Shown piece by piece: positions 1-49,628 of a stretch of DNA of 64,000 nucleotides (position 1 is its first letter; the number at the start of each line of letters is the position of its first letter). The stretch spans positions 1,506,986 to 1,570,985 of the forward strand of contig OX422192.1 of the NCBI GenBank assembly GCA_949130485.1. Reading direction: 5' to 3'. This DNA is from Agelas oroides. Its lineage: Eukaryota > Porifera > Demospongiae > Agelasida > Agelasidae. The position numbers and the translations under genes are program-made. The notes under the pieces are model-generated. The model saw only the letters and a list, made by a program, of their open reading frames with translations, made no database searches and was not told the DNA's origin.

Positions 1-875
1 TGTGGCCTGCTTTTTGTTGCCTCATCTGCGAAGGGTGTGGCTTGGGAGGTTAGTGAACAATCAGAAAGATGCTGTACGGCACAATGGGCAAAAAGGGTGG
101 ATATTCATACATGTGAAACTCTGTCATCTGGCCTCCGAGAAGCATCGTTTTGGCCCAAAAATGGTCTCAGAAGCAATCAGTCAGAGCCTAAAATTTTCTG
201 AGGAGAGCATGCCCCCAGATCCCGCCTGTTGTTGCATGTTTTACGCACATAACCTGACCACTGATGACTACAACCCTGCAAGGTGTGGAAGGTGTGTATG
301 TTGCAGGTGCTGAAGGAGAAATGTATGGACAGTGTCTCCAAACAAACACAACTCAATGTTTCAACTAACACTCCTCAACTAACCTCTTCACCAAAGAATG
401 GCAGGAAATTAGAGAGCATATTGTATGATACAGTTTGTACTTTGTATAATTATTATTTTTGAAGTATCATTGTGTCTAATCACACATTCTTTTTTTCTAT
501 AACAATTTTGCAATAATGCAAGGGTACATAAATAGCAATTGCTAACTTGATAATGCACCCAGATAGAAGTCCAATTAATTCAAGTGTTAAGTATTAGGAG
601 ATGTATTAAGTGCATGACATAGTATAGTTCATTTGAAAGAATGTAATGACTGCAGCTGGCAGATGGAGGTAGCTGTTCCATATAAGCTGCAGTATGTGCA
701 GAGAGATAGAACTTTCAGTATAGAACACCCACTTGGTGCATGCGCCTAAGTTCTGGCAGACAACAGCTGTTATACCCAGTGTAGGGTCAGTGAATTTGGA
801 ATCTGGAAATATTACGTGGAAGTGGGAGGGGCTAGGGAATAATTGTCCTCGATCTCTTGCAATTGTCGACTCGCG
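1..875. other. Upstream flank of Death/Ig/Kelch gene, copy A
   Basis: No supported gene. The stretch is almost identical to 25364-26238. Open frames on both strands here are short, use no recognisable domain and run antisense to the gene's first exon. A promoter cannot be assigned; I see no clear TATA box close to the start codon at 876. Confidence 0.5.
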
Positions 876-3800
876 ATGGTAGACATTGAGGTGGATTCCG
901 ACTTCAATATCCACACCAGCTACCACAACGACTTCTTCCTGTTGAGAACGAGGGTGCTGGTGAACGGAGAGAACGCGACGATCACGTCCGTCAAGGAAGG
1001 AGTCTATGAGGAACCCGTCCTGAACTTTCGCCATGATGGTACCACCATCAGCGCAAAGCTTTGGTCACTCACAAACACTCTTTCACCCGTCTTGGCTCAA
1101 TATGGGGTCTACCATGTGAATACGTTTTATTACGAGCAGTCGCCTCTTTTTCATCTCGTCTTCAGCTCTGAATCCAGTTTAAGGCTGTTTCTGGTCAAGA
1201 TTCCAAAGGTTAGATCTGCCATGCAGTCAGAGCTTCAGTCGGTACTTATGAAGACCAGTCATGTCGACCAAACCGAATCCCAGTCCTTCACTGTCAAAGT
1301 CCAACCAGAACTATTTCTGGTTTCTCCCAATCGACAAGATAGAAAGGGAGCAGAACTCCATCTGGTGACCACAGAGAACTGCTCCCTCTTTGTGAGCCGC
1401 TGGAAGAACAGCAAGCTGTTTGACTTTGGATCACTGTACCAGGAGGAAGGTATGTTCATCTCTACAGTAGGATAATCTAAAATTTATTAGAGCAGCAAAA
1501 TGTCCAAAGATAAAGTATATTAATTTTAGTGTGAGTTTACTCAAGTATTAGCTCCTACTGAATTCCTTTCCACATTGCATTCTTTGTGGGAAGGATAGTT
1601 ACTCAACTGTAGCAACCAATACTTACTAACACAATTCATGGTGTTGTGTCCAGCTTTGGAACATTAAGATTTCATACGTACTGATGGTGGAAAGGAATTC
1701 AGTAGGAGCTACTATGGAGTAAACTCACTATCCTTTCACTAAATATACTGCATTCTTTGTGTCGTGCAACTGTAGTAGTGAAATACTTTGCTCAAATTAA
1801 ATCCAGCTAGGAAAGCAATGAGTCAAGAATATCTGCTCCACACTAACTAATGGTACATGCAAATATCTCATAAAGACAGAAGCAAGTGAGGCTCTTGAAT
1901 TGCAATAAGCTTGTGTCTGGAACTGAAGTAAGTTGATTTTTGGAACTGCAGAAATAAAACTAAAATGCATTTTGGTAAGGCATTTTTCATTAAAATGTTT
2001 AGTAATTAAAACTAAAACTAAACTCACTACTATCTTAGTCCACTAATTAAAAACTACAACTAAAAGTACCGATACTAACTCTTTTTAGATTTAGTAATTA
2101 AAACTTAACTAACAATTTGTGACATGTATGTACTACATGGTTAAAGGATCATTCTCACATTCCATCTACACATAAATACATGCACACATGCTCACACAGG
2201 TTCCTCCAGCTCTACAACTGGTACTACCAGTGTTCCCACTTCTACAAAACGGAAGTCCCTGATTTCAACCCGACAACCTCCCCTTCCTGCCTTCAAGAAA
2301 CCGACCTTCAATGAGGAGTGGAGGAAGAAGCGACAGGGACAAAGGGAGTTCGTGGGGAGAGAAACAGCTGCAGAAGGTGTGTGTATGTACAGTAACTGTG
2401 TGCCTTAAGTTGGCTCTGTCATGTGCAGTTGATTGATTCAAGTGAGATCAAGGTCTTGATCATGTGGTTCAAGTGCCAAGCTAACTGTGAGGGCAGAGAT
2501 TGGCCAAAGCAAGTGGTCTGGCTGGTCCGGTTTTGGCCAGACCAGGTTTTACGGTCATTTTTGGAAATGTGCATGCTCAGATAATGAAATTTTTGCACTT
2601 GCGCAGCTGCACCGAGCAATAACTTGTGCTCATACCACGCCATGGCTACAGCAACTGGCAGTATCACCGACTCCACGGCACAAGATGAAAAGCCACATCA
2701 TCCAGCGAACTAGAAGTTTCCCAAGCGCAAAAAGAAAGCAGTGTCCCATGCTTTCCAATCTGCTTAGTTTAGCCAGTGCCAGTGGCAATGACTTCACTTC
2801 ATGGCTAAGCATGCGCTAGCACAGAACTAAAGGGTGTGACGTCATTTAATTAATTAGGGGTGTGGCTTATCCACATCCATGGTTGGACCAGCTCCCAGGT
2901 GCTTGCTACGGCCCTGCAGAGATCAAAGGATTGTAACAAGCACAGCCATAGCCGGGTTTATTAGTTCTAGTATCAGGGTAGGCCACTGACCATGAATTTG
3001 TACTCAGCATGAACATTCTCACATGTTGCTGTTAACTTTAACCTTTATTGATCCCTGCAGCCACACCTCCGCAAATTGCATCCCAACCAACAACCCTGGA
3101 GGAAATCACTGCAGGGAAGCCTGTTACGTTCTCAATCCAAGCCACTGGAACAGAACCGCTGAATTACCAGTGGCAGTGTTGGAAGCCTGAAGGAGAGGAG
3201 GACGAGAGTGAGGCCTGGCAGGACCTCACCTGTGATGGTGTCAAGTTTCAAGAGGTGAAAGCTGGACTGAAACTCACTGCAGTCCAGGCATGTGATGCAG
3301 GCTACTATCGGTGTGTGGTCTCCAACTCTGCTGGAAGTGAAACTTCACTGTGTGCAAACCTTGTTGTTGGTAAGCCCCAGTAATTACATAATCTTGTGAA
3401 CACAAGTCACAACTTAACACTTCCTTTGCTTTCATGTAGTTGCTGACCTATGTGACCTTATGAATGAACTGACAGAGGTGAACAACTGGATGCACTTGGG
3501 TCTCAACCTGGGGCTTAAAATACCAACACTGGAGGCCATTCAGATCGACAAAGGTACTACTGCAGATCGTCGCACCCAGATGCTTATTGATTGGCAGAAG
3601 CGAGCTACTCCCACGTGGTCTGCTGTGCTCCAGGCATTGGTTAAGATGGGGATGAGACATCTTGCCTCTCAGCTAGCACGGAAACATGGTTAGCTCCATG
3701 CTGATGAAAATCAACTTCGCTGTCATAATAATATTTTACTCATCTTCAGGAATCCCTGTGCCCAAGCCATCTAAGGATGAAGCTTTGGAGCAACTACGGA

Positions 3801-6800
3801 ACCTTCCTCAACAAGAAGAGGTAAAATGGTATAACAATCACTAACACTGTCATACAATGCTTACTGTTTCATATGATCTCTAAAAGCCCACCAGATCCAA
3901 GCTACTTGCCAAAGTTCAAAACTGCAGACAGAACATCAGTAAAATGGATGAGCAGTTAAAAGATTCCAACCAGCGGCTAAGGGAGACACAGGAAGCTAAA
4001 CAGACTATTGATGACAGCATCAACCAGCTACTCAGTAGCTTTCCTAGACTCTATGAAAATGTCCAAACTGTTGCCGATGAGAAAAACAGTCTCAGGAAGG
4101 AGCTCGAATCCAAGGAACGTGAGTGTCAGTTGTTGACTGAAATGCGTGACACAATTAAAGCAAAAGACCAACAAGCTTCGGCTTACAACAAGTTGCTAGA
4201 AGAAAAGCATCAGAAAGATTTAGAATTGCTAGAAGAGAAAATCATCAAGAAACGGAAGAAGATTAAGAAGTTGAAAGAAGAGCTACAGAGGAAGGATTCT
4301 GAGCTCCAGGCTGCCCAGCAAGAAGCCAGAACACAACAAGCAGAACTATCAGACCTCCAAGCACAGCTGAAGAAGAAACACGATGATATGAAAAGCTTGC
4401 AGAGTAAGAATGAAAAGCTGGCCAGTTCCTGCAACTCAGCAAGGGAGCAAGTCAGTGAACTTGTCCAGCTCACGCTTACTCTTTCCTCTGATAAAGGGAA
4501 AATGGAGGTATGATTTCGCAGTTCATAGGTTGTCCTCCATGTATTACTCACATTAATTTATTATGCAATACTCACATTTTGTCTTCATTTTGTAGCAACA
4601 ACTCATGGATGCGAAAACGGAGTCAGACCTCAAATCACAACAAATCAAAGCCTGCAATGCAAACATCAGTCACCTCAGTAAAGAGGTTGAAGCTCTATCA
4701 TGTTCTCTCCAGGAGAAACAAGCCACAGTATCACAGCTTGAGAGAAAACTACAGTCACACCAGCAGGCAGCTATTACTCCGGAACAGCTGTTGGAGTTGC
4801 TCAAACTGGCACCTCAGACAGCTGAACTAGAGCGCAGGTTGCAGGAGGCAGAGTACCAGAAGCAGCAAGCAGAGTTGGAGAGGGAGATGGCTATTAAAGA
4901 GATGGAGGCCCAGAAGAAATTTCAAATGAACCTTCATGCACAACTTGGAACATGTAAGTTGTGAACAAAAATTGTTTGAACATGTGTGCTCAACTACACT
5001 ACAGTTGATATATGAAGTACATTGTTGTACTCTTTTCATTGCTCTCCTCCTAGGGTTGGAGGGTTCCATTCCAGATGCTCCTGCAGCTCCAATCAATGGA
5101 GGAACCAAGAGTGGGAGTGACAAGCCTAAGGTAAGTTTAGACATAGTTACTACAGGGTACTAATTTTCTAGGACCAGAAGCTAGGTATAGCTTTCCAACT
5201 ATAGCAGCTGTTTGGATTTGTAGCTACAAATTGCCAAGAAAAACTGCCAACAGACTATACGACAGCAGGGATAGATGCTAGCAATAAAATGTCAACTCTT
5301 ATTTTACCACCAAAGTTACAGAGCCTCTGGTTTTTTGATGCTATACAGATCTGGGTATTATTATTTTATCTTAAATAAGGTGCTACAGCTTTATTTATTG
5401 TGGTCAAAAAGTGTTCTGAAGAGTGCAGTAGTGATCTTGTAGTCCACAACATTCTGTACACTATGACTGTTTACAGTAAATACAGTGAGGTTGTAATTAG
5501 TTGGGCTCCACAAAGTCTGGGTTTCAGACATATAAGGCGCAATTTTGGCAGCTGCTCACTGTGTGAATTCAAAAATTTTTTGCTTGCTGAATAGCTAGCT
5601 AGCAGTTTGTGTTTACCTAGAGTTCTCACTAGAGCTCTTACTCTTTAGACTTGTGCAGTTTATTCAGTTAGTTTTAAGTCTAGGCACTGCTAGAGAATTG
5701 TCTGAAGGCTAGTTGCTAGCCTAAAACAAGGTGAGTCAAATTTTTCAGTATGCAACCCTAGCTAGTTGGATAGCTCCATGTGCAGCTGCCAAAATTATTG
5801 TATGGTTTTCAAGAACATTTTGCTGGCATTCATACACTTAGTTTAATAGCTGCTCTAGGAAAGTGAAAATGGAGCTAACTAAAGCTATATGGAGCTACCA
5901 ACTACAATGGGAAGCTATACTGTTATTTTAGTATGATGTCACAGAAATGGTGGGCACTCCAGGACATTTACCTCTTTCAGTTGCTGCAATTCTGCCTCTT
6001 CTAGCACAAATAAATACTAGTAGCACCTGTTGCTGGACAAAAATATGTGTACACAGCTGTTTAAAGTGCTAATACTCTTTGCCCACTAATTTCTATGATG
6101 TCATACTATTGCAACGGCTACTGCCGAGGGTGTATCAGGCTGCTGGAGGCAGCGAGAGGACATACACAATTAAATACAGCTGTGAAAGAAAGCAGAATGC
6201 TAAAAATAGTGTGAAAAAATTATTATTTTATGCCCTCTCTCTGCTATGGCCGATACACTCTTGTTATTACATAATACATGTAACAGAAAAAGGTGTGCCG
6301 GTGCTCTGGGCATGTGCTGGTGGTTAATTTTTAATTAGCATCCACTTTAGGACACGCTATGAAGTAATAAACTTGTTTTATATTTCAGACGCACCCCCTC
6401 AGTGAGCTAACATGGAGGAGGCTGCCAGACATGCCAAGAGAAATGGTGTGGCCACAGTCAGTAACAGTGGATACAGTTGTGTACATTGCAGACAGATACA
6501 GTCGTGTCATACTCAGATATGACCCACACAACAACCAGTGCACTGAAATACCACAATATCAATACAGGAGGTTTACCATCACAGAACTGACCCACCAACT
6601 GGTGGTGGTTGGTGGTTATGATGTGTCCACTCACAAGATGAGCAAGACTGTATCTGTCTACTGTCCATCAGAGAGGAGCTGGAAACATCCCTACCCTCCA
6701 ATGAACACACCTCGTGAGTGGCCAGCTGTATCCACTTACCACCAACGTCTGGTGGTGGCAGGTGGGTGTGATGATAGTTTGACTGACATAGCTACAGTTG

Positions 6801-7264
6801 AAATCCTAGATACCTCTGTCAGCCATTGTCAGTGGCTCTCTGCCGTACCACTCCCCGTGAGCTGTCGTCTAATGTCAGCCGCCATTACACACGGTACGTT
6901 GTACCTACTAGGAGGTACGCTGGGCAAGAAAGTACTCAGCGTGCCTCTCTCAGCCCTTACACAAACTGACAAGCCACCCGCACAGTGGCGCACACTCCCC
7001 GACGCCCCGCTGGAGTACTCTACGGCCATCGCCGTCCATGGATCTCTGTTGGCAGTGGGAGGAAGCCATGGCCGACAAAGAAGCTCAGCTATTCACGTCT
7101 ACGACCAGGAGAAGAACGCGTGGAACAAGGTGGGCGACTTACCTACTGAAAGAGAAGATTGTGCGTGCTGTCTGTTACCGAGCGGAGAGATCCTTGTTGC
7201 TGGAGGAGAAGATCGCAATGGCAACTGGACTAGCCGAATGGACGCAGCAGCTGTAAAAGACTAA
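876..7264 (+). CDS. Ig / Death / coiled-coil / Kelch protein, copy A
   Basis: Nine exons with GT-AG junctions and matching phases: 876-1449, 2200-2376, 3061-3369, 3440-3688, 3750-3820, 3887-4507, 4596-4953, 5054-5130, 6389-7264. The joined length is 3312 nt, or 1103 residues. Domains: residues 1-250 unrecognised; about 251-353 an Ig-like domain with the D-x-G-x-Y-x-C motif but no Cys at the usual B-strand site; about 354-436 a Death domain with the family's Trp, Leu-Gly-Leu and R-x-x-M-L pattern; about 461-786 Lys/Glu/Gln-rich coiled coil; 813-1103 a Kelch propeller with Gly-Gly doublets near 887, 937, 987, 1036 and 1084. No signal peptide or membrane segment is seen, so it is probably cytosolic. 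Death plus Ig recalls MALT1 (family knowledge), but there is no paracaspase. ATG 876 is chosen because the frame extends further up only through non-ATG codons. Function is inferred: a recognition or signalling scaffold. Confidence 0.85.
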
Positions 7265-7282
7265 CCGTTGTGTTGTAATCTC

Positions 7283-7320
7283 GTTCCCAGGCTACCGTAG
7301 CTGGTCTGGGAACGAGGCAT
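7283..7320. repeat. Short foldback of the CTCGTTCCCAGGC family
   Basis: Arms CTCGTTCCCAGGCT and its near reverse complement are separated by a few bases, 18 bases after the Kelch stop. The same arm recurs at many other sites in the window (for example 22895, 43287, 48946, 56640). Copy B has it at about 32645-32685. Confidence 0.6.
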
Positions 7321-8805
7321 TTTCTGATCTTCATTTTTGTACTCTGACCTTGATTTTTTTTTGCATCTGATCTTTGTCAATTTCTCATGCGTGCGCTGTT
7401 CTGCGGTCGAAGCGGATACTCATGTAGAACAGTGAACTAATACTCCTGAATGCTACTGACTGTCAGGAAACTATCAGCTATGAAGCAGAAGGCAGCATAA
7501 TGCATAGACACAAACCGATTCGGGATCCAGCAACATGGGGTAGCATACATCACTAAATGCCTTCGCACGGGCACGTTTCATTGTCCTCACCTCTTCATAA
7601 CTCAGTTTCCTGCTACAGGATAATTGCTTTGGAGGAAGGTGTGTATTAAATGCAAGGACAGGATTAGGAATGCTGGCATGAATACTTAAAATTTGTTTTT
7701 GGTCTCACGAAGCCAAACCTGGGAGAACTGCATACCTTGGGCTTCCTATCAGAGAGTCGGACAGTTGTTGATCCAAGCTAAATTGGGCTGTTCTCAAGTG
7801 TTCACTCCCTGTGGATGTACAGATTTCAGTTCCCCCCTCAGACAACAAAAATGAGTAACAACCCACTGTGGACACAGAACTCAGTGATGCAATCAATTTT
7901 TACCCCCAGGACACATGCAGTTTTTTTTTCTTCCCCCCTCCCCACCTCCCCGCCCCTTTTCCCCAAGTCTTGGTCCTGGACTGTATTTTTCGTGCCCACC
8001 AGAAACTGTTCAACTGTCTACATATTCCATTTATGTTCAAGTGCCTTGAAATGCTGGTGCATTGTTCCTTTCTAATTTGATACTTGATGTCATTACAGAT
8101 TACATTCCACATTGTGTGCCAACAATCAACTAGCAAAATGGACGTTGATGAGCCGACATTAGCTACCACGGCTATTCTGTCTTTCAAAAGGAACATGATA
8201 GGCTGTCTCGGGGTTCACTGTTTACTAGAACGGTTTTTAATTTGCAATCCAGTTGATGTGATGTCACAGTGATTTAAAAATATTGGAACCAAAATGGTAT
8301 AGACAGTTTACCGGACTATTTAGTCTGGGCATGAGACTACGTACCCTCCCCCCCCCCCCCCCCCCCATTTAGGTTCATCCCCCCCAGAAATTATAACTTG
8401 ACTGCAACCCCAAAATCAAAGTAGGCTATTGAACCACCTGGATGCAATTAATTTGGGCATTTTTACCCCCAGGACACAATTATTTTTCTTGTTTTTGTTT
8501 TTTGCTTTTTTACCCCCACCCTCCCCCAGACATACTAACTTGACTATACAACCCCTTCATACATAATTATGGTTCATCCACAGGGGGTGTTTGCCTATAT
8601 AATGGATTGCTCAATCTGTCTACTCCATGTTACTGTGACTTTCTGTGATCAATCTGAAGGCAGGCAACATATATACATGATGATGTAATTTGAATAATAA
8701 TGGAAATCAGTGGCATAGAGGGACAGATCGTTCACTAGTGTAAGATATGTAGGGAGAATCCATTTTAGGCCATACCAACTTGATGTCCTGTTTCACGAGT
8801 AAGAC

Positions 8806-9172
8806 AGTTGTGGGGAGCGACCTGGATGTAAGTAAGGACAGTTGTGGGGAGCGACCTGGATGTAAGTAGGACAGTTGTGGGGAGCGACCTGGATGTAAGG
8901 CAGGACAGTTGTGGGGAGCGACCTGGATGTAAGTAAGGACAGTTGTGGGGAGCGACCTGGATGTAAGCAGGACAGTTGTGGGGAGCGACCTGGATGTAAG
9001 TAAGGACAGTTGTGGGGAGCGACCTGGATGTAAGTATAGGACAGTTGTGGGGAGCGACCTGGATGTAAGTAGGACAGTTGTGGGGAGCGACCTGGATGTA
9101 AGTAGGACAGTTGTGGGGAGCGACCTGGATGTAAGTAGGACAGTTGTGGGGAGTGACCTGGATGTAAGCATG
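8806..9172. repeat. Minisatellite, about 33 bp x 11
   Basis: Eleven units share the core GACAGTTGTGGGGAGCGACC and differ mainly in a 0-4 base spacer around the AAGTA junction. Most unit lengths are multiples of three or nearly so, which creates spurious long frames on both strands. The array is absent from the matching place in block B, so it expanded in A or was lost in B. Confidence 0.9.
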
Positions 9173-9934: not shown

Positions 9935-13548
<3,614 letters not shown>

Positions 13549-25283: not shown

Positions 25284-26238
25284 ACCTAAGAGATCATTTC
25301 AAGGCAGGGCCGTAGCCACCGGTCAGGTTAGTCCGGTTGAAACCGGACCACTTTTTCCCTCACTTGTGGCCTGCTTTTTGTTGCCTCATCTGCGAAGGGT
25401 GTGGCTTGCGAGGTTAGTGAACAATCAGAAAGATGCTGTACGGCACAATGGGCAAAAAGGGTGGATATTCATACATGTGAAACTCTGTCATCTGGCCTCC
25501 GAGAAGCATCGTTTTGGCCCAAAAATGGTCCCAGAAGCAATCAGTCAGAGCCTAAAATTTTCTGAGGAGAGCATGCCCCCAGATCCCGCCTGTTGTTGCA
25601 TGTTTTACGCACATAACCTGACCACTGATGACTACAACCCTGCAAGGTGTGGAAGGTGTGTATGTTGCAGGTGCTGAAGGAGAAATGTATGGACAGTGTC
25701 TCCAAACAAACACAACTCAATGTTTCAACTAACACTCCTCAACTAACCTCTTCACCAAAGAATGGCAGGAAATTAGAGAGCATATTGTATGATACAGTTT
25801 GTACTTTGTATAATTATTATTTTTGAAGTATCATTGTGTCTAATCACACATTCTTTTTTCTATAACAATTTTGCAATAATGCAAGGGTACATAAATAGCA
25901 ATTGCTAACTTGATAATGCACCCAGATAGAAGTCCAATTAATTCAAGTGTTAAGTATTAGGAGATGTATTAAGTGCATGACATAGTATAGTTCATTTGAA
26001 AGAATGTAATGACTGCAGCTGGCAGATGGAGGTAGCTGTTCCATATAAGCTGCAGTATGTGCAGAGAGATAGAACTTTCAGTATAGAACACCCACTTGGT
26101 GCATGCGCCTAAGTTCTGGCAGACAACAGCTGTTATACCCAGTGTAGGGTCAGTGAATTTGGAATCTGGAAATATTACGTGGAAGTGGGAGGGGCTAGGG
26201 AATAATTGTCCTCGATCTCTTGCAATTGTCGACTCGCG

Positions 26239-29200
26239 ATGGTAGACATTGAGGTGGATTCCGACTTCAATATCCACACCAGCTACCACAACGACTTCTT
26301 CCTGTTGAGAACGAGGGTGCTGGTGAACGGAGAGAACGCGACGATCACGTCCGTCAAGGAAGGAGTCTATGAGGAACCCGTCCTGAACTTTCGCCATGAT
26401 GGTACCACCATCAGCGCAAAGCTTTGGTCACTCACAAACACTCTTTCACCCGTCTTGGCTCAATATGGGGTCTACCATGTGAATACGTTTTATTACGAGC
26501 AGTCGCCTCTTTTTCATCTCGTCTTCAGCTCTGAATCCAGTTTAAGGCTGTTTCTGGTCAAGATTCCAAAGGTTAGATCTGCCATGCAGTCAGAGCTTCA
26601 GTCGGTACTTATGAAGACCAGTCATGTCGACCAAACCGAATCCCAGTCCTTCACTGTCAAAGTCCAACCAGAACTATTTCTGGTTTCTCCCAATCGACAA
26701 GATAGAAAGGGAGCAGAACTCCATCTGGTGACCACAGAGAACTGCTCCCTCTTTGTGAGCCGCTGGAAGAACAGCAAACTGTTTGACTTTGGATCACTGT
26801 ACCAGGAGGAAGGTATGTTCATCTCTACAGTAGGATAATCTAAAATTTATTAGAGCAGCAAAATGTCCAAAGATAAAGTATATTAATTTTAGTGTGAGTT
26901 TACTCAAGTATTAGCTCCTACTGAATTCCTTTCCACATTGCATTCTTTGTGGGAAGGATAGTTACTCAACTGTAGCAACCAATACTTACTAACACAATTC
27001 ATGGTGTTGTGTCCAGCTTTGGAACATTAAGATTTCATACGTACTGATGGTGGAAAGGAATTCAGTAGGAGCTACTATGGAGTAAACTCACTATCCTTTC
27101 ACTAAATATACTGCATTCTTTGTGTCGTGCAACTGTAGTAGTGAAATACTTTGCTCAAATTAAATCCAGCTAGGAAAGCAATGAGTCAAGAATATCTGCT
27201 CCACACTAACTAATGGTACATGCAAATATCTCATAAAGACAGAACCAAGTGAGGCTCTTGAATTGCAATAAGCTTGTGTCTGGAACTGAAGTAAGTTGAT
27301 TTTTGGAACTGCAGAAATAAAACTAAAATGCATTTTGGTAAGGCATTTTTCATTAAAATGTTTAGTAATTAAAACTAAAACTAAACTCACTACTATCTTA
27401 GTCCACTAATTAAAAACTACAACTAAAAGTACCGATACTAACTCTTTTTAGATTTAGTAATTAAAACTTAACTAACAATTTGTGACATGTATGTACTACA
27501 TGGTTAAAGGATCATTCTCACATTCCATCTACACATACATGCACACATGCTCACACAGGTTCCTCCAGCTCTACAACTGGTACTACCAGTGTTCCCACTT
27601 CTACAAAACGGAAGTCCCTGATTTCAACCCGACAACCTCCCCTTCCTGCCTTCAAGAAACCGACCTTCAATGAGGAGTGGAGGAAGAAGCGACAGGGACA
27701 AAGGGAGTTCGTGGGGAGAGAAACAGCTGCAGAAGGTGTGTGTATGTACAGTAACTGTGTGCCTTAAGTTGGCTCTGTCATGTGCAGTTGATTGATTCAA
27801 GTGAGATCAAGGTCTTGATCATGTGGTTCAAGTGCCAAGCTAACTGTGAGGGCAGAGATTGGCCAAAGCAAGTGGTCTGGCTGGTCCGGTTTTGGCCAGA
27901 CCAGGTTTTACGGTCATTTTTGGAAATGTGCATGCTCAGATAATGAAATTTTTGCACTTGCGCAGCTGCACCGAGCAATAACTTGTGCTCATACCACGCC
28001 ATGGCTACAGCAACTGGCAGTATCACCGACTCCACGGCACAAGATAAAAAGCCACATCATCCAGCGAACTAGAAGTTTCCCAAGCGCAAAAAGAAAGCAG
28101 TGTCCCATGCTTTCCAATCTGCTTAGTTTAGCCAGTGCCAGTGGCAATGACTTCACTTCATGGCTAAGCATGCGCTAGCACAGAACTAAAGGGTGTGACG
28201 TCATTTAATTAATTAGGGGTGTGGCTTACCACATCCATGGTTGGACCAGCTCCCAGGTGCTTGCTACGGCCCTGCAGAGATCAAAGGATTGTAACAAGCA
28301 CAGCCATAGCCGGGTTTATTAGTTCTAGTATCAGGGTAGGCCACTGACCATGAATTTGTACTCAGCATGAACATTCTCACATGTTGCTTGTTAACTTTAA
28401 CCTTTATTGATCCCTGCAGCCACACCTCCGCAAATTGCATCCCAACCAACAACCCTGGAGGAAATCACTGCAGGGAGGCCTGTTACGTTCTCAATCCAAG
28501 CCACTGGAACAGAACCGCTGAATTACCAGTGGCAGTGTTGGAAGCCTGAAGGAGAGGAGGACGAGAGTGAGGCCTGGCAGGACCTCACCTGTGATGGTGT
28601 CAAGTTTCAAGAGGTGAAAGCTGGACTGAAACTCACTGCAGTCCAGGCATGTGATGCAGGCTACTATCGGTGTGTGGTCTCCAACTCTGCTGGAAGTGAA
28701 ACTTCACAGTGTGCAAACCTTGTTGTTGGTAAGCCCCAGTAATTACATAATCTTGTGAACACAAGTCACAACTTAACACTTCCTTTGCTTTCATGTAGTT
28801 GCTGACCTATGTGACCTTATGAATGAACTGACAGAGGTGAACAACTGGATGCACTTGGGTCTCAACCTGGGGCTTAAAATACCAACACTGGAGGCCATTC
28901 AGATCGACAAAGGTACTACTGCAGATCGTCGCACCCAGATGCTTATTGATTGGCAGAAGCGAGCTACTCCCACGTGGTCTGCTGTGCTCCAGGCATTGGT
29001 TAAGATGGGGATGAGACATCTTGCCTCTCAGCTAGCACGGAAACATGGTTAGCTCCATCCTGATGAAAATCAACTTCGCTGTCATAATAATATTTTACTC
29101 ATCTTCAGGAATCCCTGTGCCCAAGCCATCTAAGGATGAAGCTTTGGAGCAACTACGGAACCTTCCTCAACAAGAAGAGGTAAAATGGTATAACAATCAC

Positions 29201-32200
29201 TAACACTGTCATACAATGCTTACTGTTTCATATGATCTCTAAAAGCCCACCAGATCCAAGCTACTTGCCAAAGTTCAAAACTGCAGACAGAACATCAGTA
29301 AAATGGATGAGCAGTTAAAAGATTCCAACCAGCGGCTAAGGGAGACACAGGAAGCTAAACAGACTATTGATGACAGCATCAACCAGCTACTCAGTAGCTT
29401 TCCTAGACTCTATGAAAATGTCCAAACTGTTGCCGATGAGAAAAACAGTCTCAGGAAGGAGCTCGAATCCAAGGAACGTGAGTGTCAGTTGTTGACTGAA
29501 ATGCGTGACACAATTAAAGCAAAAGACCAACAAGCTTCGGCTTACAACAAGTTGCTAGAAGAAAAGCATCAGAAAGATTTAGAATTGCTAGAAGAGAAAA
29601 TCATCAAGAAACGGAAGAAGATTAAGAAGTTGAAAGAAGAGCTACAGAGGAAGGATTCTGAGCTCCAGGCTGCCCAGCAAGAAGCCAGAACACAACAAGC
29701 AGAACTATCAGACCTCCAAGCACAGCTGAAGAAGAAACACGATGATATGAAAAGCTTGCAGAGTAAGAATGAAAAGCTGGCCAGTTCCTGCAACTCAGCA
29801 AGGGAGCAAGTCAGTGAACTTGTCCAGCTCACGCTTACTCTTTCCTCTGATAAAGGGAAAATGGAGGTATGATTTCGCAGTTCATAGGTTGTCCTCCATG
29901 TATTACTCACATTCATTTATTATGCAATACTCACATTTTGTCTTCATTTTGTAGCAACAACTCATGGATGCGAAAACGGAGTCAGACCTCAAATCACAAC
30001 AAATCAAAGCCTGCAATGCAAACATCAGTCACCTCAGTAAAGAGGTTGAAGCTCTATCATGTTCTCTCCAGGAGAAACAAGCCACAGTATCACAGCTTGA
30101 GAGAAAACTACAGTCACACCAGCAGGCAGCTATTACTCCGGAACAGCTGTTGGAGTTGCTCAAACTGGCACCTCAGACAGCTGAACTAGAGCGCAGGTTG
30201 CAGGAGGCAGAGTACCAGAAGCAGCAAGCAGAGTTGGAGAGGGAGATGGCTATTAAAGAGATGGAGGCCCAGAAGAAATTTCAAATGAACCTTCATGCAC
30301 AACTTGGAACATGTAAGTTGTGAACAAAAATTGTTTGAACATGTGTGCTCAACTACACTACAGTTGATATATGAAGTACATTGTTGTACTCTTTTCATTG
30401 CTCTCCTCCTAGGGTTGGAGGGTTCCATTCCAGATGCTCCTGCAGCTCCAATCAATGGAGGAACCAAGAGTGGGAGTGACAAGCCTAAGGTAAGTTTAGA
30501 CATAGTTACTACAGGGTACTAATTTTCTAGGACCAGAAGCTAGGTATAGCTTTCCAACTATAGCAGCTGTTTGGATTTGTAGCTACAAATTGCCAAGAAA
30601 AACTGCCAACAGACTATACGACAGCAGGGATAGATGCTAGCAATAAAATGTCAACTCTTATTTTACCACCAAAGTTACAGAGCCTCTGGTTTTTTGATGC
30701 TATACAGATCAGGGTATTATTATTTTATCTTAAATAAGGTGCTACAGCTTTATTTATTGTGCTCAAAAAGTGTTCTGAAGAGTGCAGTAGTGATCTTGTA
30801 GTGCACAACATTCTGTACACTATGATTGTTTACAGTAAATACAGTGAGGTTGTAATTAGTTTGGCTCCACAAAGTCTGGGTTTCAGACATATAAGGCGCA
30901 ATTTTGGCAGCTGCTCACTGTGTGAATTCAAAAATTTTTTGCTTGCTGAATAGCTAGCTAGCAGTTTGTGTTTACCTAGAGTTCTCACTAGAGCTCTTAC
31001 TCTTTAGACTTGTGCAGTTTATTCAGTTAGTTTTAAGTCTAGGCACTGCTAGAGAATTGTCTGAAGGCTAGTTGCTAGCCTAAAACAAGGTGAGTCATAT
31101 TTTTCAGTATGCAACCCTAGCTAGTTGGATAGCTCCATGTGCAGCTGCCAAAATTATTGTATGGTTTTCAAGAACATTTTGCTGGCATTCATACACTTAG
31201 TTTAATAGCTGCTCTAGGAAAGTGAAAATGGAGCTAACTAAAGCTATATGGAGCTACCAACTACAATGGGAAGCTATACTGTTATTTTAGTATGATGTCA
31301 CAGAAATGGTGGGCACCCCAGGACATTTACCTCTTTCAGTTGCTGCAATTTTGCCTCTTCTAGCACAAATAAATACTAGTAGCACCTGTTGCTGGACAAA
31401 AATATGTGTACACAGCTGTTTAAAGTGCTAATACTCTTTGCCCACTAATTTCTATGATGTCATACTATTGCAACGGCTACTGCCGAGGGTGTATCAGGCT
31501 GCTGGAGGCAGCGAGAGGACATACACAATTAAATACAGCTGTGAAAGAAAACAGAATGCTAAAAATAGTGTGAAAAAATGATTATTTTATGCCCTCTCTC
31601 TGCTATGGCCGATACACTCTTGTTATTACATAATACATGTAACTGAAAAAGGTGTGCCGAAGCTCTGGGCATGTGCTGGTGGTTAATTTTTAATTAGCGT
31701 CCACTTTAGGACACGCTATGAAGTAATAAACTTGTTTTATATTTCAGACGCACCTCCTCAGTGAGCTAACATGGAGGAGGCTGCCAGACATGCCAAGAGC
31801 AATGGTGTGGCCACAGTCAGTAACAGTGGATACAGTTGTGTACATTGCAGACAGAGGAAGGCGCAGTGGTGACATACTCAGATATGACCCACACAACAAC
31901 CAGTGGACTGTACTACCACACTATCAATACTGGTTCTTTACCATCACAGAACTGACCCACCAACTGGTGGTGGTTGGTGGTTGTGATGTGTCCACTCTCA
32001 AGACGATCAAGACTGTATCTGTCTACTGTCCATCAGAGAGGAGCTGGAAAGATCCCTACCCTCCAATGAACACACCTCGTATGTTACCAGCTGTATCCAC
32101 TTACCACCAACGTCTGGTGGTGGCAGGTGGGCGTGATGATAGTTACACTTACCTAGCTACTGTGGAAATCCTTGATACATCTGCTAGCCATTGTCAGTGG

Positions 32201-32629
32201 CTCTCTGCCGCACCACTCCCCGTGAGATGCAATCTAATGTCAGCCGCCATTACACACGGTACGTTGTACCTACTAGGAGGTTCGCTGGGCAAGAAAGTAC
32301 TCAGCGTGTCTCTCTCAGCCCTTACACAAACTGACAAGCCACCCGCACAGTGGCGCACACTCCCCGACGCCCCGCTGGAGTGCTCTACGGCCATCGCTGT
32401 CCATGGATCTCTGTTGGCAGTGGGAGGAAGCCATGGCGGACAAAGAAGCTCAGCCATTCATGTCTACGACCAGGAGAAGAACGCGTGGAACAAGGTGGGA
32501 GACTTACCTACTGAACGAATATTTTGTGCGTGCTGTCTGCTGCCGAGCGGAGAGATTCTTGTTGCTGGTGGACAAGACAAAGAAGGCCGAGACATTAGGC
32601 GAATGGACGCAGCAGCTGTAAAGGACTAA
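26239..32629 (+). CDS. Ig / Death / coiled-coil / Kelch protein, copy B
   Basis: Paralogue (or allele) of the gene at 876-7264, with the same nine exons: 26239-26812, 27559-27735, 28420-28728, 28799-29047, 29109-29179, 29246-29866, 29955-30312, 30413-30489, 31748-32629. The joined length is 3318 nt, or 1105 residues. Exons 1-8 differ from copy A by about three bases and two residues (Lys to Arg and Leu to Gln, both in the Ig exon). The Kelch exon differs by about 73 bases, giving 39 residue changes and a two-residue insertion after the first Asp-Arg of blade one. All reading frames and splice sites are intact, so both copies look functional. The single-exon Kelch cassette is entered by a phase-0 intron, which would ease exchange between paralogues. 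Confidence 0.85.
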
Positions 32630-34419
32630 CCGTTGTGTTGTAATCTCGTTCCCAGGCTACCTTAGCTGGTCTGGGAACGAGGCATTTTCTGATCTTTCAT
32701 TTTTGTACTCTGACCTTGATTTTTTTTTGCACTCTGATCTTTGTCATTTCTGATGCGTGCGCTGTTCAGCGGTCGAAGCAGATCGTCCTGTAGATCAGTG
32801 ACAGTGAACTAGTACCTGCATGCTGCTGACTCCCAGGAAACTATCAGCTATGAAACAGAAGGCCGCATTTATAGTGCTTGCATAGTCTCGCAAGCCGAAC
32901 CCACTACCGCAATCTCGGATCCAGCAGCATAGGGTAAGCATGCGTAACAAAATACCTTTGCACAGGGCACGTTACAGTATCCTCATCCCTTCAATGGACA
33001 ATTCATGATCAGTAAGATCACCAATTTCCTGCTACAGGATTATTGCTTTGGAGGGAGGTGTGTATGATGGAATGCTGGCATGAATACTTCCATGCAACTT
33101 GTTTTTGGTCGCACAAAGCCAAACCTGCGTGGGAGAACTGCATACCTTAGACTCCCTTTCAGAGGCTTGGACAATTGGTGTGAATTGTTGATCCAAGCTG
33201 AAATGGGCTATTCCATTTAATCCCCCCACCGTGGAGAAACAGATTTCATTCCCTGCTTTGGACAGCAAAAATTGTAGCACACCCCCCTTTGGACACAATC
33301 AAAGCAGGCTATTGAAACTCCTGGATGCAATCAATTTGGGCATTTTTTACCCCCAGGACATAATTATTTTTTTTGTTTTTGTTTTTGCTTTTTACCACCC
33401 TCCCCCTCCCACAGACATACTAACTTGACTACAACCGCCTTAGACGTAATTAATGTTCATCGTGTTTGCCTATTTAGTGGAATAGCTCAATCTGTCTACT
33501 CCATAGTTGCTGTGACTTTGTGATCAATCTGAAGGCAGGCAGCATGCACATTGTATGATTAATGCAATTTGCATACATTATGTGTAAGCAATAGCGCATA
33601 AGAACGGGCGGCTTGAGTGAGAGTGTGTAATTCCAATAGAGGCCTGTAGTCTGGTCAAAATTATTGAAAATAGAACACCCGGTCACATGCTTAGCAACAA
33701 TGCCTTATGTCTACGCAGCATACCCAGTACATGTTACTATTTTTAGTACTGGTAGTAAATTCTGACCAGTTTCAAATTTTACCAAGTTAACTACATCCTG
33801 CACTTGGATGTTTTTATGTGGAAAGTTGGTCCCCTCTTTGTAGCCATGCACTACAGAACACCAGCTCATTACATTGATGAGCTGAACTGCAACAGCACAT
33901 GCTGTAGCTAGCTGCAACTACCGGTAATGATGTCATGGTTTGATTAAGCCCAGCCATGCCCATAATTTACATTTTTCTTTATCAAAAAAATTTACCTGAA
34001 ATAATACAGGCCTATACATTCAACACCATGATTTAGAAAACATTGGCCCTCATGCTCAGTGGCACCCTCCCCATGCTTAAGAATACTATAGCCCATGCAG
34101 GAGGTCACAAGTCCCTCGGAATCAGTGTATGCAGTAGTTCAATATTGATATTGATATTGTCTCATGGGGAGAGGGTGATCCTTCGACCAGACCTGGAATG
34201 AGCTAGCCCTAACTGTGCCACTCCCAGATTTTGTCTTGTCAAGATAAAATCTGGGAGTAGCCTGGGAACAAGGCTACTATACCAAGTCCTGCAGACCCTC
34301 TGACTGCACATCAGAACCCCAGAAGGTTGAGAAACATCCAAACAAGTTGGTGTGTGTAATGGGTTCAAAAATGATAAACAATGAAATATTAAAATCTAAT
34401 CTATGACTGTCGGTTGGTC
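32630..34419. other. Gene-free stretch between Kelch gene B and IMPDH B
   Basis: No supported exon. It aligns in pieces with 7265-9934, but is about 0.9 kb shorter and lacks the 33-bp minisatellite. It includes a fragment of the inverted-repeat family seen at 18966-19240. Confidence 0.6.
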
Positions 34420-36313
34420 CTAGAACAGTCTCTTCTCATACCTGCAAGTGAAACAGGAGAGGAGACAGTGGAATGATGACGTTGTTATAAAATTAAGGTA
34501 GCTATAGTTTTTGTCCCAAGTGCTGGAGTTTCGAATGTTTGCGAAGTGAAAAACGTACCACTTCTTTGTGAGTGTTGCAAGTACAGCACAACAACTAAGG
34601 ACCACAATTTGAATCATGGGTGGTAAAGTTGACAGACCACCCTAATGAAGTCCCACTGTCTACTTACGAGTGTAATCCGTGGACCCCTCCCTCCACGATG
34701 GCCGAGTTTGTCCTCTTCTCAAACCTCAGCTCCCCACTGTACATCATGGAGCGGAGGCTAGTCAGACTGCGGGCTCCCACGTCCTGACAGCTGTGCTGCA
34801 CCCCTGTGGGAGACACAGACACACCTCATATAAACACTGTACTGTGATGTCATAATAATATCGTATTTCGTTTTTTTCGTTGCAAAAATATTTAAAATGT
34901 ACGAAAATGTTTTACGCATTGGTTGGCCCCTGCCACACGCAAGCACTTTCCCAATTGCTGCTGCCCATACCGTATAGCGGGAAATTTTCGCTGGGTGCAA
35001 ATTTTCGCGATTTTCGCAGACAGACCTACTTCCGCGGAAATAAAAACCGATGGAAATTGATGACATCATTACGTGCGTACATCGAGTACCCATGTGAACG
35101 TGATGGTTCTCTACAGTTTGTCTGCCTTCTAAATGGTTGCTGTAAAGGCCTATCAGCCTCCTACTGTACAAAATACCAACAAAACCATAAGAGACGCTCT
35201 GAAGATGTCGCATCAACCGGTAGGGGTGTGGTCACAGCGTCCCGCTTTTTGCGAAAATAAAAACCGCGAAAATTTCTTCTGAAGAGCCTGGACGCTTTTC
35301 CACGAAAATTTGCACCAGCGAAAATTTCCCACTATACGGTATATCCTTGTATACGTGGTAGCCTATATATAACACAAGCCATCTCCTTTTCACAAGCCAT
35401 CTCTTGGCACACAGTGAGATCTCCTCAATTAATGCTCACCCACACGACTTGTAAAATTATTTTTGTTCAATTTGGTCTGTGCGAAAATTATTTTACCCGA
35501 ATATAATTTTTTGGGACATAAATTTACTAGACGAAAAAAAAGCGAATTACGGTAGACTACCCTCAAAACAATAATCTCCCATACCTGCTAGGAGGTAAGG
35601 TATGAACTGGAATATGGATCCCTTGTCCACCACGGACCCAGACACACCCTGTGCCACCTTGACCCTCTCCCCCTCACTGAAGTAGCGATGTTGACTGCCA
35701 CTGTTCTTCTCCATTGCACTCAGAGACCCCATGCCTTGAGGGAGGGGGGGATGGGAGGGGAGGGAGGGAGGGAGAAGAGGGTGGAGAGGGAGAGGGAGAG
35801 GAAGGAGGGAGGGAGTCAGGAGGAAGGAAAGAGAGGGAGGGAGGGAGGGAGGAAGAGAGGGTGGAGAGGGAGAGGGAGAGGAAGGAGGGAGGGAGGGAGG
35901 AAGAGAGGGAGGGAGGAAGGGAGGGAGGTAAGAGGGAGGGAGAAGGGAGGGAGGAGGGAGGAGGGAGGGAAGAGGGAGGGAGTGAGGGGAGGAGGAAAGG
36001 AGAGAGAAGGAATGGATGCTGAACAAGGGGAACAAGGACAGAGGCTAGTTATGTTTAAAGACCAGCTGAACATCCCTACCTCTGTATTTCTTCAGTCTCA
36101 CTCCGTCCTGAAAGTAGTACTGACCGGGGGCCTCTGCTGTCCCTGCCAGCAGAGACCCCATCATCACTGTGGACGCACCCAGTGCTAAAGCGTTCGCAAT
36201 GTGGCCCACACTTTGTATCCCCCCGTCTGCGATGACTGGTACACTAAATCTCCGGGCATACTCTGCCACTTTGTAGACTGCGGTACCTTGTGGCCGGCCC
36301 ACTGCCAGTACCT

Positions 36314-36404
<91 letters not shown>

Positions 36405-36409
36405 ATGCA

Positions 36410-36456
<47 letters not shown>

Positions 36457-38796
36457 GAGGGGGAGAAGTATTTGGTACATGAAAGGTTTAGTGACAATAT
36501 TTGGAGGATGAGCGCTGTACACTTGACTTCTGACTACAAGCAACAGACGCTGAGGTTAGAAGACCTGCACACAAGACTTAGGAGACAACTACGGGCAAGT
36601 ATATAACCTATAACCTCCCATACCTGCTAGGAGGTAAGGTATGAACTGAATATGGATCCCTTGTCCACCACGGACCCAGACACACCCTGTGCCACCTTGA
36701 CCCTCTCCCCCTCACTGAAATAGCGATGCTGACTGCCACTATTCTTCTCCATTGCACTCAGAGACCCCATGCCTGGAGGGAGGGGAGGGAAGGAGGGGAT
36801 GGGAGTGGAGGGGAGGGGAGGGGAGGGGAGTGGAGGGGAGTGGAGGGGAGGGGAGGGGAGGGAGGGGAGGGGAGGGTAGGGGAGGGGAGGGGAGGGGAGG
36901 GAGGGGAGGGGAGGGGAGGGAGGGGAGGGGAGGGGAGGGAGGGGAGGGGAGGGAGGGGAGGGGAGGGGAGGGAGGGGAGGGGAGGGGAGGGAGGGGAGGG
37001 GAGGGAGGGGAGGGAGGGAGGGAGGAAGGGAGGGAGGGAGGAAGGGAGGGAGGGAGGGAGGGGAGGGGAGGGACATTTGCTCTCGAGTTCATATGGCATG
37101 CCTTTCGATATCAATTCATTCGTAGCATCCAAAACCGTAAAGATAAATTACAGGTACAGCAGCTTTACACTGCGGGCATACCTTTGTTGGAGGCATACTT
37201 ACTGCCAATAGCCAATAATTGAACTCGCAAAGAACGTCTCTCCCAAGAACAAAATGGCCGCTAGCCACGTGGTCCAGATTCATACGCATGCGTGTTTTCC
37301 GCGGAGTAAAAAAATGGCCGACTTATCATGTAGCCGTACCAACAGGAAACGCTCTAGCTTCGCAACGAAGCATTTTCAGAGAAAATCGCTTAAACTTTTC
37401 GACCCTCATCCGCCGCTGAGAAGGTTGGTATCGTTTGTGGCACGAATAATCACGTGAAAAGTGAGATGTTGAGCAACAGACACACACACACAGACACACA
37501 GACCAAGTACTGTAACCCTCACTGCGCATGCGCGCCGAGGGTTAATGATCTTAGTAATAGATACATGTATGTTCCATGCAATCTGAGAATTTGTGTAATC
37601 CTGAGATTGTGTTGTGCATTCTCAGAATCCCGAGATAGCGTTCCAATCTGGAGATTGCGTAATACATGTGCCAATCTCAAAACTGCATGATTTGCATGCG
37701 CAATCTACAGACTTTGAACTCCGCCTGTATGCCTGACTGTCAGCTCGTAGGATGGAAGACATCCGTGTCTGCCTCCATAGGAGGCATATTGCGATCTGGA
37801 AGAGTGAGTAATGCTGTGTATTGATGAGCAACGGAAGAGGAATAGGCCGCGTTCAAAGTTTGCCTGTCGATCATAGTTGGCCAGTCAGCTTATATGCCAC
37901 ATGCTACTGGTTCAATCGAGTGTATACTATCTAATTGTGTCAGCGACAGTTGAGACGTACCTTCGCTGAAACTGTCAGCTAACTTTTGCCGTGCCATGCA
38001 TTATCGGTCATTTTCAGGTACATGTACACAGCGGGTAGAAAGGATGGTAGGGAGGGATATATAACCTGTTACCTAGGCAACATCACTGTAGAAGAGCAAC
38101 ATCCTTAGATGTTGCCACAGTAACAGGTTATATCTCTACCTGTGTGATACAGATGGATCCTGTTCCCATGCCGACCCTCAGAGCATCAACTCCAGCGTCG
38201 ATGAGGTTCTTGGCCTGTTGTGCAGTCACTACGTTGCCCCCTATGACCTGCAGGTCAGGGTGGTGCTCCTTGATGTACTTGATCATGCTAATCTGAAAGA
38301 CAGAGTTGCCCTGGGAGGAGTCCTGTGGGGAGAGGGAGGGGTTAAATTAGAACATGTGAAGTGAGCATGGGAGGGATTAAATCAGAATATGTAAAGTGTG
38401 CATGGGAGGGGTTAAAATCAAAAATTGTGATTGGGGTTAATCTAGAACATGTGAAGTGAACTCAGGAGGAGTTAAATAAGAGTCTTAGTGAGTAAGTACA
38501 GGAGTTAAATTGGGGCACAGAGGGGTTATATCAGCATGAGTAAAAGCAGAAGAAATAAAGGGATTAATCTGAGAAGAGTGAATCATTCTCACTCACCAAC
38601 ACAAGAACATCAAGTCCTGCATTTACAAGAGCTGCCAGTCTTATCTTGTCCTCTTCACGAGTCCCGATGGCTGCTCCGACAAGCAGTTGCTTCTTCTCGT
38701 CTTTCGAGGCAAGGGGAAAACTTCTACTCTTCTTGAGGTCTGTGCGAGCAATAAGTGCGACCAGTTCATCTTTCTCATTGACAATAGGGAGCTTGC
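34420..38796 (-). CDS. IMPDH: IMP dehydrogenase, copy B, 5' part lost at assembly gap
   Basis: Same six exons as copy A: 38597-38796, 38140-38322, 36080-36314, 35585-35734, 34668-34803, 34420-34441, with all splice junctions kept. The encoded segment runs from the GKLPIVNE region through the catalytic Cys loop and flap to the conserved EKRLF end. Differences from A include Lys to Asn in the IAKALALG helix and Thr to Ala before EAPGQYYF. The first visible exon ends four bases before the N gap, so the missing N-terminal exons may lie in unsequenced DNA. An extra, frameshifted copy of the 35585-35734 exon sits out of order at 36624-36772. The intron next to the C-terminal exon carries a 370-bp MITE absent from copy A. 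Confidence 0.85.
34970..35339. mobile_element. 370-bp MITE with TA target duplication
   Basis: Ends CCGTATAGCGGGAAATTTTC and a near-perfect reverse complement are flanked by TA (34968-34969, 35340-35341). Block A has the empty site near 10970-10975. TA target and size fit a Tc1/mariner-type non-autonomous element. A related, larger element is at 55032-56041. Confidence 0.85.
35737..36003. repeat. G-rich purine tract at IMPDH B acceptor
   Basis: Equivalent of 11367-11760, but shorter and with an internal GAGGAAGGAGGGAGG duplication. It lies a few bases from the acceptor of exon 35585-35734. Confidence 0.85.
36316..36452. repeat. (GT)n microsatellite abutting IMPDH B acceptor
   Basis: GT tract with a CGCACG interruption. 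On the transcript the (CA)n meets the CAG acceptor of exon 36080-36314. Confidence 0.95.
36624..36772 (-). pseudogene. Extra, frameshifted copy of an IMPDH exon
   Basis: A second copy of the RYFSE flap exon (true copy 35585-35734), with its own G-rich acceptor tract and its GTATGG donor. It is 149 instead of 150 nt because one base of the GGAATAT region is missing. The frame therefore ends in a stop soon after GSIF. It lies upstream of the exon that should precede it, so inclusion would be out of order and truncating. Confidence 0.85.
36774..37072. repeat. G-rich (GGGGA)n tract of the duplicated exon
   Basis: About 300 bp, copied together with the pseudo-exon. Closer in pattern to 11367-11760 of block A than to 35737-36003 of block B. 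Confidence 0.85.
37073..38050. other. Extra intronic DNA in IMPDH B
   Basis: About 1 kb without a supported exon. It has two AAAATGGCCG stretches and a GCGCATGCGCG motif near 37527 that look promoter-like, but no convincing gene follows. Only a short piece near 37550-37580 matches block A. Confidence 0.4.
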
Positions 38797-38800
38797 CTGA

Positions 38801-39000
38801 NNNNNNNNNNNNNNNNNNNNNNNNNNNNNNNNNNNNNNNNNNNNNNNNNNNNNNNNNNNNNNNNNNNNNNNNNNNNNNNNNNNNNNNNNNNNNNNNNNNN
38901 NNNNNNNNNNNNNNNNNNNNNNNNNNNNNNNNNNNNNNNNNNNNNNNNNNNNNNNNNNNNNNNNNNNNNNNNNNNNNNNNNNNNNNNNNNNNNNNNNNNN
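38801..39000. other. Assembly gap (200 N)
   Basis: Exactly 200 N, probably a scaffold gap of nominal size. IMPDH B loses its 5' exons on one side and the MBL-fold gene loses its 3' exons on the other. Confidence 0.99.
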
Positions 39001-44753: not shown

Positions 44754-45058
44754 TGGTATGCATTTGTGGTATGATTTCAGTGGCCATACCTTTCAAATTG
44801 CATGGTATGTTCAGTGTAAAAGTGAGATCCTATTTTGGCATGACATTCACACCATTGTTTTTGCAGTTCTGTATTCTACACAATTTCGGGTATTTTGATC
44901 AGGATGTATGTATTCTAGTTATGTACCCTAAAGTCGTGTTAGGTTAGAGTCAAATATACCGGTATAGTTCCATCAAAGCAACAGGAAATTGTAATTACCT
45001 TCCATGGTCACACTGGCTAGGCAACACATACATAGCGACTATAAAACGAGTCTGCCGC

Positions 45059-48701: not shown

Positions 48702-48926
48702 GCCCGGATGGAGGAGAACTATCTCAGTCTCAATGTTCAGTAAACAGCCCGGATGGAGGACGACTATCTCAGTCTCAATGTTCAGTAAACAGCCCGGATG
48801 GAGGACGACTATCTCAGTCTCAATGTTCAGTAAACAGCCCGGATGGAGGACGACTATCTCAGTCTCAATGTTCAGTAAACAGCCCGGATGGAGGACGACT
48901 ATCTCAGTCTCAATGTTCAGTAAACA
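48702..48926 (+). repeat. 45-bp minisatellite x 5
   Basis: Five units of AGCCCGGATGGAGGACGACT... at exactly 45 bp. One frame begins at an ATG (48665) and encodes a 15-residue repeat SPDGGRLSQSQCSVN. Two other frames are open as well, so coding is uncertain. Confidence 0.95.
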
Positions 48927-48945
48927 GAGCAAGGGCATGCTGTGG

Positions 48946-49017: not shown

Positions 49018-49628
49018 ATGCTGAAGCAGGAAAGATAATCAGATTCATATGTGGTAAATCAATTGTGGTTTTCAACTGTTCACTTGCTTGTTTCAAGACT
49101 CTGCTGTACAATGGTAAAAATACAGGACGGCAGGCACAGTGGCTACATTTGGCACTATATAATGCACATTCGAGGGATTGTAGTTTACATGTAAAGTACG
49201 ATATTACTTTGGACAGGGTGAGTAGCTAGCTATTGATCTCAACAGTGATAGACTTGTCATGTCATGGGGCGGAGTTCATTGAAGGTCGCTGCCTCTGCCG
49301 TTCGGCCATTCTGTCATTTGTTCACATTACTCAACACAGAAAGTTGAGCATGTTCTCAAGTCATCTATCGTAGTCCTGGTATGATGACCACACCATTTGT
49401 GGTATGATTTCAGTGGTAGGAACATTTAGAACATGAGCCCCCCCCCCCCCCCCCCCCCCCCACTTCTTGGTAGCTGTCTCTGCCTCTGTTTTGGTATGAC
49501 ATTCATTACCATATCAGGATCTATATATCCTAGTATTAGTTCCATCAACAGCAAGAGGAAATTGTTACCCGCCGTGGTCACAGTAGCTGGGCAACACATG
49601 CATAGTGACTATAAAACAAGTCTGCAGC

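Follow-up and report, generated by a model that had tools for sequence, protein, structure and literature searches.

The question raised by this locus is why two neighboring copies of one gene are almost the same over eight exons and so different over the ninth. The window, by which we mean the whole 64,000-nucleotide stretch of DNA analysed here (C10:1506986-1570985), holds the nine-exon gene in two tandem copies, A at 1-7498 and B at 25365-32868. Over exons 1-8 (2436 nt), alignment of A with B finds three base differences, at 1415, 3118, and 3349, which give two residue changes, and exon 9 has 39 residue changes and one two-residue indel. These numbers are as counted in the initial annotation of this DNA, which had proposed that a Kelch propeller is diversified on its predicted ligand face with the rest of the protein frozen.

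The gene and its two copies in the window

All features of both copies described here are on the plus strand. In copy A, exon 1 (876..1449) encodes an N-terminal domain of 191 aa with no family assigned; Pfam and PDB sequence searches yielded nothing useful for it, Foldseek gives zero matches at E <= 0.001, and the N-terminal fold of TRADD is a weak lead. Exon 2 (2200..2376) and exon 8 (5054..5130) are linkers placed by their splice sites (AG/GT for exon 2) and by reading frame. Exon 3 (3061..3369) is an Ig domain, matching Pfam Ig_3 with E = 3.8 × 10−10 and I-set with E = 2.2 × 10−7, and exon 4 (3440..3688) is a Death domain, which scores E = 3.1 × 10−6 against PF00531 with 27.6 bits, above the curated cut-off of 22.6. 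Exons 5-7 (3750-3820, 3887-4507, and 4596-4953, spanning 3750..4953) are again placed by splice sites and frame; their Pfam matches are all sub-cut-off, and from a reading of their composition they are probably a coiled coil. After intron 8 (5131..6388), TTTCAG precedes 6389, the first position of exon 9 (6389..7264), which encodes a hypervariable six-bladed Kelch propeller of 291 aa and ends with the stop TAA at 7262-7264. The protein order is then the N-terminal domain without family, Ig, Death, probable coiled coil, and Kelch, and by eye there is neither a signal peptide nor a membrane segment. Ig and Death domains are the mark of an animal gene, and the shortness of the introns together with the gene content suggests a sponge. 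In copy B, alignment and the joined frame place exons 1-8 at 26239..30489 and exon 9, a Kelch propeller of 293 aa plus stop, at 31748..32629.

Two familiar identities were considered for this protein. That it is a BTB-Kelch (KLHL) ubiquitin ligase adaptor is not supported, BTB and BACK being absent in a Pfam scan of exons 1-8 with E up to 1. Membership in NLR/STAND is not supported either, as NACHT and NB-ARC are absent from the same exons at the same limit, and Pfam finds none in the pieces of the kinase gene L003 described below, the bodies scanned being those of the window gene and L003.

Calling the rest of the protein frozen suggests constraint, and this is where we depart from the initial annotation. 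Non-exon DNA in 1-5130 is as identical between A and B as the exons are, with 6 substitutions in 2694 nt vs 3 in 2436 (Fisher p = 0.51). As the introns there match just as closely, the near-identity of exons 1-8 indicates recently shared DNA, and strong purifying selection on those exons is rejected as the meaning of the contrast. For exon 9, the earlier count of about 57 non-synonymous and 16 synonymous differences has the total of 73 substitutions exactly right, although the Nei-Gojobori method splits it as 53.6 and 19.4. Whole-exon dN/dS is 0.86, and synonymous divergence in exon 9 is 0.093 vs 0.013 in the adjacent intron. At the start of the 3' flank (7265..7380), the alignment is near-identical again, with 1 of 99 sites different in the first 100 nt. 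Beyond about 7380, the two copies diverge once more, so A and B do not form a clean two-sided island of divergence.

Variable loops of the propeller and site models

Exon 9 belongs with the Kelch beta-propellers. Its structure model is a six-bladed Kelch propeller, and its PDB matches are KEAP1 and other KLHL propellers, which have this common six-bladed fold; the five best alignments listed are to designed Kelch proteins and NS1-BP. The 14 variable positions pointed out initially, with Met 6431 numbered as 1, differ without exception between the two copies, and each of them is within a loop assigned as BC or DA. With loop limits set by hand from the modelled strands, after the variable sites were already known, the BC and DA loops are 109 of the 291 residues and contain 30 of the 39 changes (hypergeometric p = 8 × 10−8). 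The core strands had been called unchanged, which is nearly right, but 7 of the 39 changes are in strands, and a further 2 are in CD loops. In blade 3, residues 154-161 were counted as DA despite a DSSP strand at 153-159, and none of the 19 selected sites given below is at 154-159.

The variable positions, which are after the glycine doublet and before strand a, presumably match the places of the NRF2 contacts reported for KEAP1. KEAP1 is a conserved adaptor that is not known to form a diversified family, and it differs also in its BTB and BACK domains, neither of which was found in the window gene. The KEAP1 residues contacting NRF2 are listed in PMC10459127.

A Kelch-exon search of the sponge's own genome (259 Mb assembly) gives at least 137 matches, with 134 of the 440 first candidates scored. 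Thirteen of the exons, A and B included, are full-length close paralogues, 87-100% identical to A, without stops, and all on contig C10. In this close group, mean dN is 0.074 and mean dS is 0.086, dN is the larger of the two for 20 of the 78 pairs, and whole-exon dN/dS is mostly below 1. Diversity was compared among groups drawn from L001-L050, namely the 13 close exons, 5 from contig C20, 8 called 'mid', and 6 from C10 at 8-9 Mb; left out were L024, with an in-frame stop, the partial L025 and L026, and, as more distant or with an unsettled exon start, L023, L030, L032-L041, L046, L047, and L050. One of those left out belongs to a third copy, L059/L025 (C10:1399200-1409103), which has A's first eight exons almost exactly but has lost one base from the Kelch exon, and is either a pseudogene or an assembly error.

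Mean pairwise diversity in the 13 paralogues is 0.26 in BC loops and 0.21 in DA loops, and 0.06 in strands, 0.03 in CD loops, and 0.02 in AB loops, hence the changes are not spread evenly over strands and loops but concentrate in BC and DA. Within these loops, the per-site diversity of the close group correlates with that of the C20 and 'mid' groups (Spearman 0.70 and 0.67, respectively).

Site models were fitted with our own codon-model (pruning) code and a simple optimiser, using either one tree or six trees of blade-sized segments. Recombination inside segments violates the models, leading to overstated p values; the effect sizes are large, and we trust the sign of selection and not the p values. 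In the close group, M1a vs M2a gives 2ΔlnL = 322 on one tree, where the M1a fit is −3372, and 274 on six blade-wise trees. With synonymous-rate classes, the positive class adds 2ΔlnL = 90 on one tree and 95 on six. On the one tree, a variable-synonymous model without a positive class beats M2a, −3198 vs −3211, and the positive class then adds a further 45. The omega of the positive class is about 10-12, which is the opposite of a dN/dS well below 1. Codons selected with posterior > 0.9 on six trees are in BC or DA loops in 17 of 19 cases under M2a and in 13 of 13 with synonymous classes. At the selected sites, each of the 13 close genes has its own set of residues, pairs of genes differing at 10-18 of 20 columns.

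A second cluster, at C10 8.06-9.11 Mb, has Kelch exons only 43-47% identical to A and 78-94% identical among themselves. The second selection group consists of 18 exons from there; a partial row at 8462528 and a row at 7461944 are not among them. It gives 2ΔlnL = 494 on one tree and 344 on six trees, and with synonymous classes on six trees 98, a ratio that may be inflated as its D1 null looks poorly optimised, with omega at the bound; M2a beats that D1 null by 43 log units with an equal number of parameters. In A numbering, 30 of the 32 selected columns are in BC or DA loops, and three are insertions relative to A. From 19 and 29 numbered sites, 14 are common to both groups (p = 3 × 10−12 over the 291 residues, and 6 × 10−8 within the loops). 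Among seven second-group genes, pN is larger than pS for 16 of the 21 pairs. L074 and L075 have 0 differences in 1126 nt of Death and coiled-coil DNA, and yet their Kelch exons are separated by about 72 non-synonymous and 26 synonymous changes, so the A/B type of contrast recurs among distant members of the family. The proposal of diversifying selection on what is predicted to be the ligand face is borne out by the site models in the 13 paralogues, and then again in this second subfamily.

A Kelch exon shared by Death and kinase genes

The close group is not uniform upstream of its Kelch exons. When the same strand is followed for 12 kb upstream, 8 of the 13 have a Death exon and 5 have a kinase exon, the class of L006, L009, and L012 being assigned by the position of the Death or kinase match. 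For the wider family, among the matches listed, 84 of 137 Kelch, 51 of 150 kinase, and 49 of 150 Death rows were entered; the 84 Kelch rows divide into 35 with Death upstream, 30 with kinase, and 19 with neither, the last number being an upper bound.

Blastn homology of six close genes to A begins inside intron 8 and continues through exon 9 into the 3' flank, starting at about 5255-5261 for L002, L004, and L010, and at about 5424-5436 for L003, L008, and L011. In the first three, Ig is repeated (exon 3 is matched 6, 6, and 3 times, respectively) and Death is present, and their Kelch exons are 87-93% identical to A with a coiled-coil exon at only 32-35%. The other three have a predicted protein kinase instead, plus stretches resembling coiled coil. 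The kinase assignment comes from a Pfam match of L003 to PF07714 (E = 2.5 × 10−24); the motif HRDLS[A/S]RN can be read in L003, L008, and L011, and the kinases of L008, L009, L011, and L012 are 89-90% identical to that of L003. Intron 8 distance tracks the effector class (exact permutation p = 0.0008), and no sorting by class is detectable in exon distance (p = 0.10) or in the residues at selected sites (p = 0.35). The Kelch cassette is common to two output types, Death and kinase. At C7 9.7-10.3 Mb, there is another cluster of kinase genes near Kelch exons about 32-38% identical to that of copy A, which suggests, from sequence, that kinase-Kelch may be an old architecture.

Within the exon, PHI on 59 sites gives p = 5 × 10−4, the floor of 2000 shuffles, and the 11 synonymous sites alone give p = 0.004. 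Within intron 8, p is also 5 × 10−4, so the exon is not alone in recombining. The conflict of exon-synonymous with intron sites is 0.71 vs 0.29 for intron sites among themselves, and no relation of exon distance to intron distance was found (Mantel r = 0.09, p = 0.20); L009 and L012 are 0.5% different in the intron and about 8% in the exon. Three pairs were followed along the sequence. A and the third copy L025 differ at 44/872 sites in the exon and 35/7758 in the flanks, with a shoulder of 7 differences at 6224-6340 in late intron 8. L007 and L013, the latter being copy B, have the cleanest exon peak of the three, with 48/873 differences in the exon and 21/2976 in flanks of about 1.5 kb each, divided as 14 and 7, and with pS of 0.057 in the exon vs 0.007 in the flanks. 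A and L002, compared from 1.1 kb upstream, have 26/858 in the exon and 24/2572 in the flanks; the exon changes are 22 non-synonymous and 4 synonymous, and by their sequence are more suggestive of selected point changes. Such a peak of divergence in the exon, with conserved DNA on both sides, is not general, since other pairs, A-B included, diverge again downstream. Because synonymous divergence in the exon is raised above the flanks too, in several pairs, we conclude that paralogues exchange short tracts, of which selection keeps the ones that change the face. Diversifying selection thus stands as an account of exon 9, but it is incomplete, exchange of exon segments being also part of the process.

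One could ask if positive selection is needed at all, or if the diversity is mainly old variation that gene conversion has reshuffled, with constraint on the loops relaxed. The raised synonymous divergence between A and B, the recombination detected by PHI, and the absorption of much of the signal by the variable-synonymous-rate model are all as that explanation would have it. We nevertheless regard it as improbable. The AB and CD loops, on the opposite side, are conserved, and the positive class adds its 90-95 even when synonymous rates are variable. Across the 37 codons where at least three residues occur, pN is 0.40 vs pS of 0.15, although these were picked by variability and the comparison is partly circular. 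The A-L002 changes are largely non-synonymous, and at 16 hand-picked hot codons, a mere 5 of 264 pairs with the same residue use different codons; codons that are near-constant for each residue mean that the residue varies, and not the DNA as such.

A mechanism targeted to the Kelch exon alone, either hypermutation or conversion templated by exon copies, might feed the selection; the peak in L007-L013 between its sparsely changed flanks and the failure of exon distance to track intron distance would fit with it. That is less probable still, as ordinary short conversion tracts combined with selection would look no different, recombination is detected in intron 8 as well, and the same residue nearly always has the same codon at hot sites, which untargeted base mutation would not give. 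On that codon sameness, random base hypermutation as the sole cause is rejected. An assembly artefact, with haplotype copies or collapsed repeats taken for paralogues, is hardly credible even though this is a single assembly, one contig carries the whole close group of 13, and the copy B region runs into an N gap (38801-39000), for the close copies are open frames with different gene bodies, A and B are connected by sequence without N, and variation at the same sites is seen in groups from other contigs and from other parts of C10.

A candidate receptor family and its known parallels

Our preferred reading, to which we give a probability of about 0.7, is a germline-diversified family of intracellular receptors with a Kelch sensor and a Death or kinase output. 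The C-terminal propeller would be the sensor, with a near-constant core and some 13-20 residues of the BC and DA loops, lining one face, driven to differ between copies. Its single exon behaves as an exchangeable cassette, segments of which would move by gene conversion or unequal exchange; at times the whole exon would move together with some of intron 8 and of the 3' flank. The genes linked by such moves differ in their N-terminal output module, which is of an Ig-Death-coiled-coil or a protein kinase-coiled-coil type. Up to this point the reading is carried by results, namely the predicted fold, the location of the variable sites, selection in both groups, recombination, and the presence of one cassette with two output types. 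A ligand on the face, possibly microbial or allogeneic, would then, via assembly by the coiled coil inside the cell, bring Death or kinase domains together for signalling. A stronger version, which we hold only tentatively, is a germline Kelch-propeller recognition repertoire that is perhaps partly programmed, with exon-limited conversion drawing faces from a common pool for Death-type and kinase-type receptors.

Animals without antibodies need other routes to diverse receptors. If this one is real, a propeller with two variable loop series on a fixed frame, used as a cassette for two outputs, would give animals a new recognition scaffold and would parallel the fungal WD-repeat and fish B30.2 systems. 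Questions made testable are what ligands bind the face, whether Death and kinase receptors cooperate, and how exchange concentrates on one exon.

As described by Howe et al. 2016 (PMC4852459), the zebrafish NLR-B30.2 genes are a large clustered family with the sensor on its own C-terminal exon, high dN/dS, gene conversion of the sensor across groups with differing NACHT exons, and a related sensor in finTRIM. The Kelch genes are alike in being clustered, in having a sensor exon that is selected and exchanged, and in sharing the sensor with another protein class, and with selection plus exchange between differing bodies they belong among such diversified sensor-exon families. They are unlike the B30.2 sensor and NACHT core of that account in having a Kelch propeller with two variable loop series, and in having Death and kinase outputs share the sensor at 87% identity or more. 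The fungal WD-repeat incompatibility proteins HET-D and HET-E have a few positively selected residues per repeat, at an interaction surface, and exchange their repeats, according to Paoletti et al. 2007 (PMC1805685). The likeness is in a repeat-built sensor, selected surface residues, and exchange between family members, and the difference is that whole WD repeats are exchanged there and undergo concerted evolution, whereas here the blades differ and the exchanged tracts are segments of one exon. Literature searches confined to open-access papers showed, among the top-ranked matches, no account of a comparable family of Kelch receptors. The word Kelch has zero occurrences in PMC12909245 and PMC7385117, and a 'Kelch motif containing gene' is among the differentially expressed sponge genes of PMC6208332.

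The rest of the window contains other repeated features. A minisatellite at 8798-9170 is directly 3' of copy A, and self-comparison finds no match to it of >150 nt in the copy B flank. IMP dehydrogenase exon sequence on the minus strand at 11176-12220 and 35547-36533 is duplicated along with the Kelch gene, the Pfam match having been obtained on 35547-36044; homology of the downstream copy stops at the N gap already mentioned. A second tandem gene pair, at 44948-47005 and 49587-51575, has DNA 94% identical over 2.1 kb and encodes a long protein in which several hydrophobic stretches can be made out by eye; Pfam on 45092-47002 gives no match. At 48698-48927 and 53878-54286, there is an in-frame 45-nt repeat (15 residues, NSPDGGRLSQSQCSV), with a copy number that differs between the two neighboring units.
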